NCBI GenBank assembly: GCA_029261395.1
Contig: JAJDBJ010000009.1
Coordinates: forward strand, 1-50,772
Source: Nitrospinaceae bacterium
Lineage (GTDB): Bacteria; Nitrospinota; Nitrospinia; Nitrospinales; Nitrospinaceae
DNA length: 50,772 nt
Direction of reading: 5' to 3'
Shown here: one piece after another, positions 3,151 to 10,960 of the stretch
Position numbering within the stretch: position 1 is the first letter of the stretch
Layout of the letters: the number at the start of each line of letters is the position of its first letter
Program-made: the position numbers and the translations under genes
Notes under the pieces: model-generated
Database searches by the model: none
Seen by the model: the letters and a program-made list of their open reading frames with translations, nothing else
Told to the model about the DNA's origin: nothing

Positions 3151-4016
3151 GTTAATTTGAATGACCTGCCTCTGATACTTGTACCCTTTTTTTAGTCAGA
3201 GCTTCAATCTTTTCCATGCATACGGAGTAAAACTTAACAATATCACTACGATACAATTTCAAAACTAACGGTTCGGGTAGAATCAGCCAAATTTTTTCAT
3301 ATCTAAGCCAGCGGCGGATGACCGATATATATTCAAAAACATTTCGTCCTGGATTTTAAAAATACCTTAACAAACAATGACTTTTAACGATAACCGACAA
3401 TAACAAAACGAAGGGGACCTTGCGGAAGGCTCATTTTTCAGGCAAAGACTTTCTGTACGTTTCGAAGACAAAGAAGATGAACCGCAATATCGACGTCACC
3501 GCCCGATTCCGAGTGAAGCAGGCTCAAAAAAGTAGGCCTCGGACACTCGCTTAATTGAAACCAAGTTTTGAACAAGTCGGCGATGGCTGTCTTCTTCCTA
3601 TCGCTCAAAAAAAACCGCTCCCAGAATGGGCCGTTTCCTCGCCTTATCAATAGTATCCTGACCGGACTCGAAGTAATCTTTTTGGCCAATTCGATCAAGA
3701 TTTTTCACGCTCTTCAGTGCTTTTTAAACTTCTGAAAATTAGTTGCCGGATCGATTTAATCGAGAAATTTCTACTCTAAACAACTATAGTTCCAATTAAT
3801 AAAATTGAACACTGTTTTGGAACCTGGCAATCAACTGTATCTACCTAGCAGTTTCTGCTATTTTGGCAAAGAGCTAATTCTGGTATATCCTGATGAAGCA
3901 GAGTGAAGCAAGAGTCTTTATTTCCAAAGAGTATTTTTTTTGATTCATTTCGCTCGGACTCATCAGTGTGTTGGCCGAATATATAATTAACTTCACCTTT
4001 ACCTTGAGCCTGCTCA
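3151..4016. other. Divergent intergenic region between two sensor kinase genes
   Basis: About 870 bp separating the two divergent kinase genes. It should contain both promoters, but I could not pick out convincing ones. The only coding-like content is a minus-strand reading frame at 3438-3698, listed separately. The rest is AT-rich with no recognisable gene. Confidence 0.5.
3438..3698 (-). pseudogene. Unrecognised reading frame carrying a copy of the repeated AIADLFK gene end
   Basis: An 86-codon frame without a recognised family. Its middle (RKKTAIADLFKTWFQ) matches the C-terminus of the SLOG-like protein at 10415-10960 (GKQAIADLFKSSFK), and 22 bases are identical at 3567-3588 and 10430-10451. 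In this copy the frame continues past the point where the other copies stop. A second minus-strand frame (about 3598-3718) also looks protein-like upstream, as if one gene had been frameshifted. I read it as a decayed gene or gene fragment; a real small protein cannot be excluded. Confidence 0.3.
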
Positions 4017-6058: not shown

Positions 6059-6115
6059 TTTATTTGAATGAGTTCTTGAATAGGTCGGCGATGGCTTGCT
6101 TGCCGGCACCCTGTT
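6059..6115 (-). pseudogene. Orphan copy of a gene 3' end (GKQAIADLFKNSFK-stop)
   Basis: The minus strand here reads GAGKQAIADLFKNSFK followed by TAA, almost the same as the last residues of the SLOG-like protein at 10415-10960. Of 29 bases compared (6076-6104 with 10431-10459), 27 are identical. Nothing upstream continues the match, so this is a leftover 3' end and not a gene. Confidence 0.55.
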
Positions 6116-6336
6116 TCTCGTATCACTAGGGGTGCTTTACCGTGAAGTATTCAAAACAAGACAAAATAGCAATGATCGCGTTAAGCCTAGTGGCGGTGGC
6201 TCCGTTGGTCACTGCCGGGCATACCGGCAACGAGTTGGTGTACGAACATGGCGCTTCGATCGCGCACTTGCCGCCCGATCACAAAGCCGCCATTCAATCC
6301 GGCACCATTCTCCAGCTCCATGAAAAAGGCGATTGA
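6099..6336 (+). pseudogene. Decayed fragment resembling a DUF2231-type membrane protein
   Basis: One plus frame gives a hydrophobic stretch (AGTLFLVSLGVLY, about 6099-6140). After a frame change, a frame opening at GTG 6142 gives VAVAPLVTAGHTGNELVYEHGASI. The latter resembles the end of DUF2231 membrane proteins, where a helix is followed by GG-LVY-HG. There is no proper start, no ribosome site and the frame shifts, so I call it a remnant. The family assignment is by eye and tentative. Confidence 0.35.
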
Positions 6337-6379
6337 GGTCAAACTTCCGTGTGAGCGGGTTAGTTGCGGTCAACATCCG

Positions 6380-6652
6380 CAATTCCCCCGCCAGAATCTC
6401 CCGCTTCAATTCAAGACCGAGAAGAAAAAAGAACAACGCCATGGGGCCGCTACTGACCCACTCTTTAATGGGCATTCGCACAGTATCGGAACCACAGCTG
6501 ACCCCCCGCCTCCGTATGAATAAATGCCTGGTAAGCGTTGTGCCAGTCGGTAATGGCAATCAGCATGACAAAAACCGTTGCGCCAGCCAGAACCAGACTG
6601 GTTGAAGTCTGGTTTTGCACAAAGTCATCGAAGGGGGAAATAGCCTTGGCAA
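6380..6652 (-). pseudogene. nhaA: Frameshifted N-terminal fragment of a NhaA Na+/H+ antiporter gene
   Basis: Reading the minus strand from about 6652, one frame gives ISPFDDFVQNQTST and a membrane helix ending in TDWHNAYQAF, as in the NhaA N-terminus. It stops at about 6463. The neighbouring frame then gives IKEWVSSGPMALFFFLLGLE followed by LKREILAGEL, the well-conserved NhaA stretch around the first periplasmic loop and second helix. After that the similarity ends abruptly, so roughly the first 90 residues of a 390-residue family remain, split by a frameshift and lacking a start codon. A non-functional relic. Confidence 0.7.
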
Positions 6653-6816: not shown

Positions 6817-7287
6817 CTATTGTTTGGACCCGAATTCACTTTCCGCTTTTTCCCAAGCCTTATGGAGAGACTCATAGGCACCTGAAAAACCTTTCTTCAT
6901 ATGGTTCCAGGCATCGGCAGAACTGCTTTTCAAGCTGCCGTACCGTTCGGCCACTTGATTCCTCTGCTTGCGCAATGCTTTGAGGCTGGCACGGGTTTTT
7001 TTACGCGCCGCCTTATCCATTTTATCCCATTTGTTGTCAATTCTCGCTTCCAGTGCATCAATGCGGTTATCCACCTTATCTAATGCCGCCTTGGTTTTCT
7101 GGATCGCTACATCCTTCTGATCGGAGGTATAGCTTTTAAGTGCCTGCATCAGATCCCGCGTTTCTTGTTTGACTTCTTTAAACGTCGTTTTGTCATTGGA
7201 CGTTTTAGCAAAGGATAAAGGTGTAATCCCGACCAGGGCGATTAAAATTAAAAGGAAAACAGGCCCGCTGATTTTCTGAATTTTCAT
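6817..7287 (-). CDS. Exported coiled-coil protein (stress-type, function unknown)
   Basis: 156 residues. Residues 1-27 form a clear Sec signal peptide (charged start, hydrophobic core, cleavage near SFA-K), so it should be periplasmic. The rest is Lys/Glu/Ala-rich and almost entirely predicted helix with heptad character. Its ending (SSSADAWNHMKKGF-GAYESLHKAW) resembles the tail of the cytoplasmic protein at 7374-7661 (GEDAWEDLKAGIESSWDSL), so the two are related in type. A good ribosome site (CAGGAGATGAGAA) precedes the ATG. It is the last gene of the four-gene run 8544 to 6817 that begins at a sigma-54-like promoter. Molecular role unknown. Confidence 0.75.
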   Translation of the reverse strand: MKIQKISGPVFLLILIALVGITPLSFAKTSNDKTTFKEVKQETRDLMQALKSYTSDQKDVAIQKTKAALDKVDNRIDALEARIDNKWDKMDKAARKKTRASLKALRKQRNQVAERYGSLKSSSADAWNHMKKGFSGAYESLHKAWEKAESEFGSKQ

Positions 7288-7373: not shown

Positions 7374-7661
7374 TTATTTAAACCTGGAAGCGGCCGATTT
7401 CAACGCATCGCCTAATGAGTCCCAGGAACTTTCGATACCCGCCTTGAGGTCTTCCCATGCGTCTTCACCGGATTCTTTGAGCTCGTCCAGCTTTTGCTGT
7501 GCGGCTTGCTGCTTTTCCCGAAACCTTTCGATTTCTTTGTGATACTCCAATTGCGCATCTGCTTCAGCTTTATCAGCTTTTGCTTTTAGCTTATCGATTT
7601 CCGTGCCCCACTCATCTAATTTTGCCTGCATTTTTTTCTGGTACGCTTCTTTCATACTCAT
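7374..7661 (-). CDS. Small cytoplasmic coiled-coil protein, sll1863-like
   Basis: 95 residues, highly charged and helical throughout, with no signal peptide. The ending AWEDLKAGIESSWDSLGDAL is the hallmark of the small sll1863-type stress proteins described in cyanobacteria and other bacteria. An AAGGAG ribosome site lies before ATG 7661. It sits 86 bp after the ferritin-like gene and 86 bp before the exported coiled-coil gene, in the same direction, so they are probably co-transcribed. Biochemical function unknown. Confidence 0.8.
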   Translation of the reverse strand: MSMKEAYQKKMQAKLDEWGTEIDKLKAKADKAEADAQLEYHKEIERFREKQQAAQQKLDELKESGEDAWEDLKAGIESSWDSLGDALKSAASRFK

Positions 7662-7747: not shown

Positions 7748-8167
7748 TTATTCTATTGCGTCTACCAAGTCACGTTTGTGTTCTTCTTCTTGAATGAGGA
7801 TATCTTCCAGAATCCGGCGCAAGCCATATTCGCCCAACTCCTCGGCTTGTCCAATTCGTTCCCTGTAGCGTTTGATGGCGATATCTTCGCCTTCCAAATC
7901 CTGCTGGAGCATGGTACTGCTGTCTTTAGATATTTTTCGTTCCTCTATTTTTATGGTGGGGACACCGCCTAAAAATTCTATCTGGTCGGCAATCATAGTG
8001 GCATGCTGCATTTCCTCCTGAGAATGTATAAGGAGCTCCTCTTGGATGGATTTGTATTGGGCGCCCTTAATCACGGAAGCGTGTTGCACGTACTGAACAG
8101 CAGCGGCGTATTCCCATTCCAAATCTTTGTTCAATTCCTCGATCAATTTGTCTTTTGTGATAGCCAT
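7748..8167 (-). CDS. Ferritin-like diiron protein
   Basis: 139 residues folding as a ferritin-like four-helix bundle. Putative diiron ligands are Glu19, Glu52 and His55 (EEMQH), Glu92 or Glu94, and Glu127 and His130 (EEEH), so the site looks complete. It is shorter than bacterioferritin (about 158) and resembles the short bacterioferritin/Dps-like proteins linked to iron storage or peroxide defence. Ribosome site GAGGATATAA before ATG 8167. It lies between small coiled-coil genes in a run controlled by the sigma-54-like promoter at 8585-8602. This intact ferritin contrasts with the ligand-less homologue at 11438. Confidence 0.85.
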   Translation of the reverse strand: MAITKDKLIEELNKDLEWEYAAAVQYVQHASVIKGAQYKSIQEELLIHSQEEMQHATMIADQIEFLGGVPTIKIEERKISKDSSTMLQQDLEGEDIAIKRYRERIGQAEELGEYGLRRILEDILIQEEEHKRDLVDAIE

Positions 8168-8250: not shown

Positions 8251-8544
8251 TTAATTCAATTCATCGGTCATTTTTTTGATCGATTGAGTAAGCCCTTTCA
8301 CCATGTGATCCGCTCCTTTCTCCAGCTCTTCCCAGGAATGATCCAGTGCCCATTTCATTTCCTGCACCTTGTCGGCAAAATCCTTTCTCAAATCCATTAG
8401 GGCTTCCATTTTTTTTCTGACTGGCAAGGGAATTTCCGAATCTAAATAAGCTTGCTCAACCTTATTAAACGTCTTTATGATTGCATCATCGATTTCCCCA
8501 AGCTGAGCTTCCATTCTGGTTATCATTTCATATCTATCCTGCAC
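8251..8544 (-). CDS. Small coiled-coil protein, first gene of the sigma-54 run
   Basis: 97 residues, helical and charged, with SWEELEKGADHMVKGL near the end echoing the tails of the proteins at 7374 and 6817. The start is GTG 8544 with AAGGAGG 11 nt upstream; the next in-frame Met is residue 7. It is about 40 bp downstream of a -24/-12 sigma-54 promoter match, so it should be the lead gene. Function unknown; probably a cytoplasmic stress-response protein. Confidence 0.72.
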   Translation of the reverse strand: MQDRYEMITRMEAQLGEIDDAIIKTFNKVEQAYLDSEIPLPVRKKMEALMDLRKDFADKVQEMKWALDHSWEELEKGADHMVKGLTQSIKKMTDELN

Positions 8545-8584
8545 AACCGGGTCACCCTCCTTCTTGAGGCTCTCCCATTAGTTA

Positions 8585-8602
8585 GTGCAGTATCCATGCC
8601 AA
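8585..8602 (-). promoter_or_regulatory. Sigma-54 (-24/-12) promoter
   Basis: The minus strand reads TTGGCATGGATACTGCAC. It matches the consensus TGGCAC-N5-TTGC at the invariant GG and GC, with the exact 12-bp GG-to-GC offset. It points to the gene at 8251-8544. An NtrC-family activator gene lies immediately upstream (8774-10201) and a tandem repeat lies 60-115 bp upstream, where enhancer sites are expected. Confidence 0.75.
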
Positions 8603-8663
8603 CCTGGAGTCGCTCTCAAAGCCACTAAAATAGCAGGCTAATTTTATGCAATATCCGTAAGAT

Positions 8664-8699
8664 GGGGGATATAAACCATGGAGGGGGGGATATAAACCA
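8664..8699 (-). promoter_or_regulatory. Tandem 15-bp direct repeat, probable enhancer for the sigma-54 promoter
   Basis: GGGGGATATAAACCA occurs perfectly at 8664-8678 and 8685-8699, so the copies are 21 bp (two helical turns) apart and face the same side of the DNA. They lie about 60-115 bp upstream of the -24/-12 element, the usual position of bacterial enhancer-binding-protein sites. The activator encoded next door is the obvious ligand. The repeat is directly visible; the role is inferred. Confidence 0.6.
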
Positions 8700-8773
8700 A
8701 AGAGTGAAAACGCAGAATAAAAGCTTCCGGCGGGGAAAAGGGGGATGGCTGGAGAATTTCGGTGCGGAAAATT

Positions 8774-10201
8774 CTAATTGGCGGCTTTAAGATCGTATTT
8801 TTGTATTCGGTATCTGAGGGTTTCTCGTGTTGTTCCAATACTGCGGGCGGTTTCGGTTACATTAAAGTTATTCTGTTCGAGAGCAGACCGAATAATATGC
8901 TTGTCCATCTCCTCTAAAGACATACTTCCGTCCAAAGGAATCGTGACACGGTTGTTGCCGTTTACTTGGCGATAAGCTTCTTCAGAGGAGCGCTCTTCTG
9001 CGAGAGTTTCCTGAGTGGGCGAACAATAGTCTCTGAGCTGCAACCAACGCCGGGGAAGAGTCTCATCTGTTGAAAGCAACACACACCGTTCGATAACATT
9101 ACGCAACTCCCGGATGTTGCCCAGCCAATCGTAATTCATCAATTCCTTCCAGATGTCATCAGGAATCACAGTCACGCGTTTCCTGGATTTTTTATTGTAT
9201 TCAGCGATGATGTTGGGAACCAGTTCGACGAGATCATTCTTCCTGGCGCGCAGTGGGGGCAGGCTGAGACAGAAAACCGACAGGCGGTGGTAAAGGTCCT
9301 TGCGGAATTCATCTTTTTCGCAGGCTTTCTTCAAGTCGATACCCGATGCCGCTATAATTTGTGCGTCGAAAGGGATTTCCCGTTCTCCTCCGACCCTTCG
9401 AATTTTTTTATCCTCAATGGCCTTGAGCAATTTTGCCTGCAAATCCATCGGCATATCACCGATTTCATCCATGAACAGCGTGCCGCCATCTGCTTGTTCC
9501 ATATAGCCGTGGTGTCGACTCTTTGCACCCGTAAAGGCCCCTGCTTCGTGGCCAAACATCTCGGACTCCATCAGTTCCCTGGGAAGTCCGGCGCAATTCA
9601 TTTCCACAAGAGGCCCGCCCTTGCGCAAGTCGCTGGCATAGTGGAGGATTCGCGCCACAAGGCCTTTCCCAGTGCCGGTCTCACCGTTGATGACTATGGC
9701 GCTGATTTCTACATTTGTCAGTTCTCGTAGCATGGTTTTTAATTCCTGAACCGGTTCGCTACTTCCCAGATAAGCATTGATTTGATATTGCTTTTTGCTG
9801 GAGGAAGAATAATTTTCAAGCTGCTGGCTACATCGGGCGGCTCGATAAGCTCGTGCGACTAAAACATCCAGGCGTTTTTGTTCGAAAGGTTTTTGAAGAA
9901 AATCATAGGCCAGCTCGCCAACCCTGTCGAGGTCCGTCGGATCCGCATTTTCAACGATGAATATCCATTCAGAAAAATTAACATGGCTTTGCAGTTCTTC
10001 AAGATGATCCAGAATTTTTCCGTCGGACAATCCGAGATTGGCGAGGATGACATGCGGTGACCAGTCCCCATCGACAATCAATGCATTCACTTCAGCAATA
10101 CTGGATACCAGTTCCACCAACCAACCCCGTTCGCGGTAGTATTTACCCAATCCAGCTCCGTTTTCGGTATTGTGCTTTATAAGCAACATTTTTTTTGACA
10201 T
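8774..10201 (-). CDS. Sigma-54-dependent activator (NtrC family) with degenerate receiver domain
   Basis: 475 residues from ATG 10201 (AAGGA 9 nt upstream; the TTG at 10207 is less likely). Residues 1-125 form a receiver-like domain, but the phosphoacceptor position is Asn (ILANLGLSDG, Asn55) and the N-terminal acidic pair is missing; only the Lys in LQKPF remains. The AAA+ domain has Walker A GETGTGKG (about 173-180), GAFTGA (about 221-226) for sigma-54 contact, and a GTLFMDEIGD Walker B. A Fis-type helix-turn-helix ends the protein (about 430-475). It should act without ordinary phosphorylation or through another signal. Its likely target is the adjacent promoter at 8585. Confidence 0.93.
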   Translation of the reverse strand: MSKKMLLIKHNTENGAGLGKYYRERGWLVELVSSIAEVNALIVDGDWSPHVILANLGLSDGKILDHLEELQSHVNFSEWIFIVENADPTDLDRVGELAYDFLQKPFEQKRLDVLVARAYRAARCSQQLENYSSSSKKQYQINAYLGSSEPVQELKTMLRELTNVEISAIVINGETGTGKGLVARILHYASDLRKGGPLVEMNCAGLPRELMESEMFGHEAGAFTGAKSRHHGYMEQADGGTLFMDEIGDMPMDLQAKLLKAIEDKKIRRVGGEREIPFDAQIIAASGIDLKKACEKDEFRKDLYHRLSVFCLSLPPLRARKNDLVELVPNIIAEYNKKSRKRVTVIPDDIWKELMNYDWLGNIRELRNVIERCVLLSTDETLPRRWLQLRDYCSPTQETLAEERSSEEAYRQVNGNNRVTIPLDGSMSLEEMDKHIIRSALEQNNFNVTETARSIGTTRETLRYRIQKYDLKAAN

Positions 10202-10414: not shown

Positions 10415-10960
10415 CTATTTAAATGATGATTTGAACAAGTCGGCGATGGCTTGCTTGCCAGCGTCGTTGAGGAAACGGGTACCGGTGCCCGCGATGTGGC
10501 GTTTCTGGATTTTAGGATTGCCTTGTTGCCACTTGTCGCCGTTCCACCAGTGCCATTGCTTTTCCTCCTGATCGAACACATGCAAAGGTTTGTTGCACAG
10601 CTTGGCGAATTCCGCGCCCCAGCCGGTGCCGCCTTTCACGGTGCCGTCATCAAGAATCTTGCCGATGACAAACACTTCTTCGGCGCTGTTGATCTGGTGC
10701 CAGATGCATTGCAGAACTTTTTTCAACAGCGGCCCCTGCGTGTAGGACCGGTGCATCAGTTTGGAAACGTAGGACAGGCTGACGTCGCCATGCAACAATT
10801 CCTCATGAGTGAGGAAACGCAGACCACGCTTTCGGGCATCCTGGTGTCCCTCGAAGGTGAAGTTGACTTCATCCATCCCGGCCTTTTCCGCCGCCGCGCC
10901 GAATTCCGCCTCGGCTCCCTTGGCCCCACCGCTGAATAACGTACACTCTTCCGCTTTCAT
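10415..10960 (-). CDS. SLOG-superfamily-like nucleotide-binding protein
   Basis: 181 residues. The N-terminus (TLFSGGAKGAEAEF) and the later GGTGWGAEFAKLCNKPLHVFD look like the glycine-rich ligand loops of the SLOG Rossmann-like superfamily (DprA/LOG/YpsA), which bind nucleotides or nucleotide-derived signals. A C-terminal tail (about 140-181) contains WHWWNGDKWQQ and ends in the repeated GKQAIADLFKSSFK. A strong ribosome site (GAGGAGG) precedes ATG 10960. No partner gene is adjacent; upstream and divergent lies the Fur box region. The superfamily is assigned by motif only and no function can be given. The last 14 residues recur as orphan fragments at 3567 and 6059. Confidence 0.7.
   Translation of the reverse strand: MKAEECTLFSGGAKGAEAEFGAAAEKAGMDEVNFTFEGHQDARKRGLRFLTHEELLHGDVSLSYVSKLMHRSYTQGPLLKKVLQCIWHQINSAEEVFVIGKILDDGTVKGGTGWGAEFAKLCNKPLHVFDQEEKQWHWWNGDKWQQGNPKIQKRHIAGTGTRFLNDAGKQAIADLFKSSFK

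Follow-up and report, generated by a model that had tools for sequence, protein, structure and literature searches.

The described system closest to the present locus is the acid-response system lpiA/acvB of Sinorhizobium (Ensifer) medicae, for which control of a stress response by sigma-54 and a related activator appears to have been reported before (Tian et al. 2017, as cited in PMC9048898). It shares with the module described here the clade of its activator, a palindromic site, a sigma-54-like promoter and a stress target, and its distribution, patchy and plasmid-borne, is also alike. It differs in that its activator has an intact receiver and lies beside a phosphorelay (tcsA, tcrA, fsrR), in that its target is a lipid-modifying operon, and in that a single site near -86 stands in place of a pair. 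Neither lpiA/acvB nor tcsA-tcrA-fsrR was recognised among the ORF translations near the four module activators discussed below.

The family of proteins encoded by the target genes includes Sll1863 and Sll1862 of Synechocystis, which rank with the proteins most strongly induced by salt there and also respond to a wide range of stresses (PMC8670252, PMC6789579); an sll1863 knockout is reportedly without a salt phenotype (PMC8670252). Members of the family are abundant, and in cyanobacteria few known proteins are induced more strongly by stress (PMC8670252). Their family (NF052504) includes the three coiled-coil proteins of the module; unlike the Synechocystis genes, those of the module are under a predicted dedicated activator, and one copy has a signal-like segment. 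Cyanobacteria are not known to have sigma-54, and control of sll1863 genes there must therefore differ from that in the module.

Among activators, NtrC1 and NtrC resemble that of the module in domain order, GAFTGA loop, Walker motifs and receiver fold, but they differ in the phosphorylation residues, which the module activator has lost. PspF, which PspA holds in check, lacks an N-terminal domain. The phage shock operon is like the module in placing a dedicated sigma-54 activator without a functional receiver beside small coiled-coil stress genes, but the targets of the module are unrelated to pspA and its activator does have an N-terminal domain; this activator scored 255.4 bits against the PspF profile TIGR02974, far below the cut-off of 443.55, and no pspA lies in the cluster.

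A sequence-only reading of this DNA had not recognised sigma-54 control of sll1863-like proteins and a ferritin as described. Our literature search found no description joining sigma-54 to sll1863 proteins or ferritin, and to this extent the claim stands, but it is narrowed by the sigma-54 switch with a related activator that seems to have been described for lpiA (as cited in PMC9048898). With a dedicated activator, sites and promoter alongside, the sll1863 genes here form a portable unit in which signal, regulon and function can be tested together.

The activator locus and its putative target cluster

The window, the whole stretch of 50,772 nucleotides that was analysed, comes from a 2.94-Mb genome of the Nitrospinota (G000). 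On its minus strand, a sigma-54 activator gene is followed by two identical 15-bp sites, a predicted -24/-12 promoter, and four closely spaced genes, three of the sll1863 family of coiled-coil proteins and one bacterioferritin-like, in the order sll1863-ferritin-sll1863-sll1863:

8774..10198, minus strand: sigma-54 enhancer-binding activator, 474 aa, with a degenerate receiver (residues 1-130), an AAA+ domain with GAFTGA loop and a Fis-type HTH (Pfam, alignments, fold model, trees)
8685..8699, minus strand: distal candidate activator site TGGTTTATATCCCCC (minus strand), centre at about -116
8664..8678, minus strand: proximal candidate activator site, identical copy, centre at about -96
8586..8601, minus strand: predicted -24/-12 promoter TGGCATGGATACTGCA, predicted start at about 8575, kept in orthologous loci
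8251..8544, minus strand: sll1863-family gene 1, 97 aa, GTG start, Shine-Dalgarno AAGGAGG (NF052504, 44.9 bits)
7748..8167, minus strand: bacterioferritin-like protein, 139 aa, variable cluster member (Pfam Ferritin, E=4e-26)
7374..7661, minus strand: sll1863-family gene 2, 95 aa (NF052504, 124.5 bits)
6817..7287, minus strand: sll1863-family gene 3, 156 aa, signal-like N-terminal segment (NF052504, 58.2 bits)

As the sequence-only reading had it, activator, site pair, promoter and target are all adjacent, each element was found in its place, and the two 15-bp sites are identical (GGGGGATATAAACCA, exact at 8664-8678 and 8685-8699, 21 bp apart). The target cluster contains the coiled-coil and ferritin-like genes that had been reported, but it extends further than had been drawn, to 6817. 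All three coiled-coil proteins exceed the curated cut-off of 35 bits for NF052504 (NCBIfam 'sll1863 family stress response protein'). The ferritin-like protein, whose sequence retains the E-x-E, EEMQH and EEEH motifs and whose best PDB match is 9qq4 bacterioferritin, certainly has a ferritin-like domain; its status as a bacterioferritin equivalog is not certain (62.2 bits against TIGR00754, below the cut-off of 125.55).

The activator matches Pfam Sigma54_activat (E=7e-59) and the Fis HTH (HTH_8, E=1e-10), and it has the attributes of a bacterial enhancer-binding protein (bEBP): an AAA+ domain, a Fis-type HTH, predicted upstream sites with a -24/-12 promoter, and rpoN in the genome. Allowing up to one mismatch, GGGGGATATAAACCA occurs across the whole 2.94-Mb genome only in the two copies already known, and the exact 15-mer was discarded as a genome-wide motif; it is a variant particular to this locus, and what is conserved is a palindrome. 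The consensus, roughly GGTKGATATCMACC, is near-palindromic and self-complementary, as a site recognised by a dimeric Fis-type HTH protein should be. The promoter (8601-8586, minus strand) has a correct invariant GG-N10-GC but two mismatches to TGGCACN5TTGCW, so that it is good only, rather than the textbook example that had been proposed. Such a match by itself is no rarer than chance (24 observed in the window versus 24.5 expected), and one of equal quality falls within 250 bp upstream with a chance of about 0.024 per gene. The promoter is lifted above chance by comparison, as it is retained at four orthologous loci along with the site pair and the distance of that pair.

Conservation and specificity of the control region

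Orthologues of the activator with 71-80% identity were found at L148 (genome G023, from another family of the same order), L004 (G015, a Nitrospina sp. MSP contig) and L003 (G077, a MAG labelled Emcibacteraceae). Because the activator is thus present in 3 of 77 Nitrospinota genomes plus this one MAG, the wide spread claimed for it rests on a small number of genomes. All four genomes with the module contain rpoN, and sll1863 genes adjoin the activator at all three other loci. The G023 cluster is as in the window, ferritin included (91% protein identity), but for an additional sll1863 gene; in L004, which lacks the ferritin, there are three sll1863 genes; and L003 has one sll1863 gene with a DUF1328 gene downstream, three further sll1863 genes in a divergent cluster, and no ferritin. 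The ferritin, first taken for a regular target, is present in the window and G023 but absent from L003 and L004, and because only two of four loci have it, the sll1863 family is the constant target. This fits a core of activator and sll1863 genes to which ferritin would be accessory.

Between activator and first target, all four loci contain two 14-bp near-palindromes, spaced start to start by 21, 19, 19 and 18 bp (in the order window, L148, L003, L004, here and for the centres) and centred at -116/-96, -118/-98, -118/-98 and -116/-98 from the predicted start. The promoters (TGGCATGGATACTGCA, TGGCATAATTACTGCA, TGGCATAGTTTCTGCA and TGGCACAAGCCCTGCA) have conserved elements and differing spacers. 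Leave-one-out position matrices recovered the site pair in each locus, while none of 500 dinucleotide shuffles scored as well; the sites were first spotted by eye in these same intergenic regions, a bias that the leave-one-out procedure lessens but does not remove. The divergent L003 cluster has its own -24/-12 promoter, TGGCATTAAAAATGCT, with GTCTTGGTTGAATTCAACCAAGAC, a perfect palindrome of 24 bp and of the same type as the sites above, whose centre lies at about -130. That repeat and promoter be conserved at orthologous loci, on which the original proposal had been made to depend, was borne out in three other genomes and also in a distant gammaproteobacterial relative (G229).

Within the phylum, a -24/-12 match lies directly upstream of all five sll1863 clusters beside the activator versus none of 17 clusters without it (Fisher p ~4e-5), and use of sigma-54 by these other clusters was accordingly rejected. 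Among 61 further sll1863 loci, mostly from Gammaproteobacteria and Desulfobacterota, the sole one with a promoter at its start, L231 in G229, is also the sole one preceded by a member of the activator clade. Its promoter, TGGCACGCGTTCTGCA, precedes the annotated start of the ORF by 29 bp, and GGTGAAATCCCCC and GGGGGATTTCACC, 21 bp apart, lie at -108/-87; this inverted pair could double as the terminator of the activator gene. In a sample of Desulfobacterota, one candidate, L244, was dismissed as a module: a gene 41.7% identical to the activator lies just downstream, but its N-terminus is that of a different, longer receiver protein, and no -24/-12 promoter match was found at the locus. Plasmid-borne sll1863 genes at two loci have no -24/-12 match just upstream. 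On a Ruegeria plasmid (L282, 3435-4270), a Dps-family gene is followed by an sll1863-family gene without signs of sigma-54, and here too sll1863 is paired with a protein of ferritin fold.

Sites within one mismatch of the consensus number 19-31 per genome over both strands, exceeding the reversed-pattern control in G000 and G023, and S. medicae has the site at two separate promoters, as might be expected if the activator regulates many genes and the adjacent cluster is one target among them. However, among the 25 genome-wide matches checked, about a quarter of all, a -24/-12 promoter was found at a suitable distance only for the module's own sites, and such a broad regulon appears unlikely.

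The receiver domain and related activators

The Walker A/B motifs, arginine fingers, GAFTGA loop and AAA+ core are invariant across the four orthologues. The first assignment, to the NtrC family, holds for the AAA+ and HTH parts but not for the receiver, which is degenerate: the N-terminus scored 15.8 bits against Response_reg, below the cut-off of 30.2. Comparison of the activators against 107 homologues revealed that Asp54 is replaced by Asn in all four orthologues, while Asp is kept in 103 of 103 other homologues in which this column is filled. Likewise, the acidic residues are replaced by K8 and H/C/Y9 and the switch Thr by V82 in the four orthologues, leaving Lys103 (in 4/4) as the sole key receiver residue; the set that marks a group I, NtrC-type phospho-regulated bEBP (acidic pair, Asp, Thr/Ser, Lys) is thus incomplete. 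The N-terminal 130 residues were nevertheless modelled as a receiver (pLDDT 87.7, 52 sequences), and the PDB matches of this model are receivers, including NtrC1 (TM 0.83-0.85). A full-length AlphaFold model from four sequences was discarded (pLDDT 39.8). Because Asp54, the acidic residues and the switch Thr are changed, conventional phospho-activation is unlikely, and an activator whose receiver has lost these residues should respond to a non-phosphoryl signal.

In a tree of 43 activators, the four module proteins, that of G229 and that encoded on S. medicae pSymA form one clade (100/100), and the link of G229 to the module activators was also recovered in another tree (100/99). The S. medicae activator is 46-47% identical to those of the module over its full length. 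Its gene lies beside tcsA-tcrA-fsrR-lpiA, and after it comes the consensus palindrome in exact form, GGTGGATATCCACC, while a second copy, GTGGTTGATATCCAC, precedes TGGCACACTGTGTGCT in front of lpiA; both sites are centred near -86. The module loci carry GGTGGATATCCACC or a close form of this DNA site, which the clade shares. We take the S. medicae activator to be, almost certainly, EbpA of Tian et al. 2017. At L280, 9421-9502, a perfect palindrome and a weaker -24/-12 match precede a gene for a DUF1614 membrane protein just downstream of this activator, which suggests that the DUF1614 gene may be a second target besides lpiA.

An alphaproteobacterium (G1126) encodes a strong match to the clade profile, by which it was placed; a histidine kinase gene lies immediately upstream and the receiver is recognisable. 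Besides the kinase and the activator, the region (L287, G1126:C5, 6432-11530) holds two YfdX-family genes, both preceded by a -24/-12 promoter of their own and a palindrome centred at about -97, and it has the appearance of the same type of switch in intact form, driven by a kinase. Over seven promoters, the site centres cluster in helical phase (R ~0.9 at 10.5 bp, p ~0.003, a post hoc value).

These relatives bear on whether the module activator might still be controlled by phosphorylation, through an unlinked kinase or a small phosphodonor acting on another residue. Retention of K103 in all four activators, the adjoining kinase and intact receiver of G1126, and the key residues kept in S. 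medicae would all accord with such control, and because these two receivers are intact, the ancestor of the module activator was probably phospho-regulated. In the module itself, however, Asp54 is Asn in 4/4 proteins, the acidic residues and switch Thr are also gone, and no histidine kinase gene adjoins the activator at any of the four loci, so that persistent phospho-control is quite improbable. Because the same clade holds close relatives with intact receivers and linked kinases, the module allows a response regulator to be compared before and after its loss of phospho-control.

Proposed mechanism and possible mobility of the module

The reading that we favour, at a probability of roughly 85%, is that of a sigma-54 switch which acts locally on sll1863-family stress proteins, with an activator lacking conventional kinase control. 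We infer from the DNA and protein sequences that the activator binds, where transcription starts, that the cluster is co-transcribed, that phospho-control has been lost, and what kind of signal is read. The activator would be made from its own upstream promoter, its dimers would bind the two near-palindromic sites two helical turns apart, and the bound protein would assemble an AAA+ hexamer that, via DNA looping, could reach sigma-54 polymerase ~95-115 bp downstream and open the -24/-12 promoter of the sll1863-ferritin-sll1863-sll1863 cluster. Activation would come from a non-kinase cue, sensed through the pseudo-receiver or relieving it. The switch had been called self-contained, which is apt for its DNA parts but not for its signal, as the receiver has lost its phosphorylation residues and no kinase adjoins. 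Because Sll1863 and Sll1862 are salt-induced in Synechocystis and the relative in S. medicae acts in acid stress, the likeliest class of input is, by analogy, osmotic, acid or envelope stress. More tentatively, the clade sharing one palindromic site may represent a family of transferable switches for stress, with members in Alpha- and Gammaproteobacteria and in Nitrospinota; in one of its branches, a non-phosphorylated receiver would directly sense stress and control sll1863 via a phase-fixed pair of sites.

That repeats and -24/-12 match are incidental, with a sigma-70-type promoter driving the cluster and the repeats binding another regulator or forming RNA structure, is very improbable: promoter matches of this quality are common across the window and the G229 pair could be a terminator, but position and promoter elements are kept at four loci despite a changing spacer, no sigma-70-type match was found in 8545-8773, and sll1863 clusters without the activator have no such promoter.

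Between G000 and G023, the activators are 80% and the RpoN proteins 61% identical; between G000 and G077, the values are 75% and 39%. Because this latter rpoN identity is far below that of the activator, either L003 was transferred between phyla or its contig was misbinned; the GC content of L003 equals that of the G077 rpoN locus. In the window, 47-bp direct repeats (6061-6107 and 10416-10462, 83% identical) bracket the whole module. They are copies of the 3' end of the gene at 10415-10960, and 3554-3588 holds a third, partial one (35 bp, 86%). Within the bracketed segment no integrase was seen; the arrangement resembles serial insertion at the 3' end of a gene and could have been left by an insertion. 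Directly downstream of the sll1863 cluster, within this segment, frame-broken remnants on the minus strand (6140-6640) resemble, by eye, an NhaA Na+/H+ antiporter (e.g., MALFFFLLGLELKREILAGELRM).
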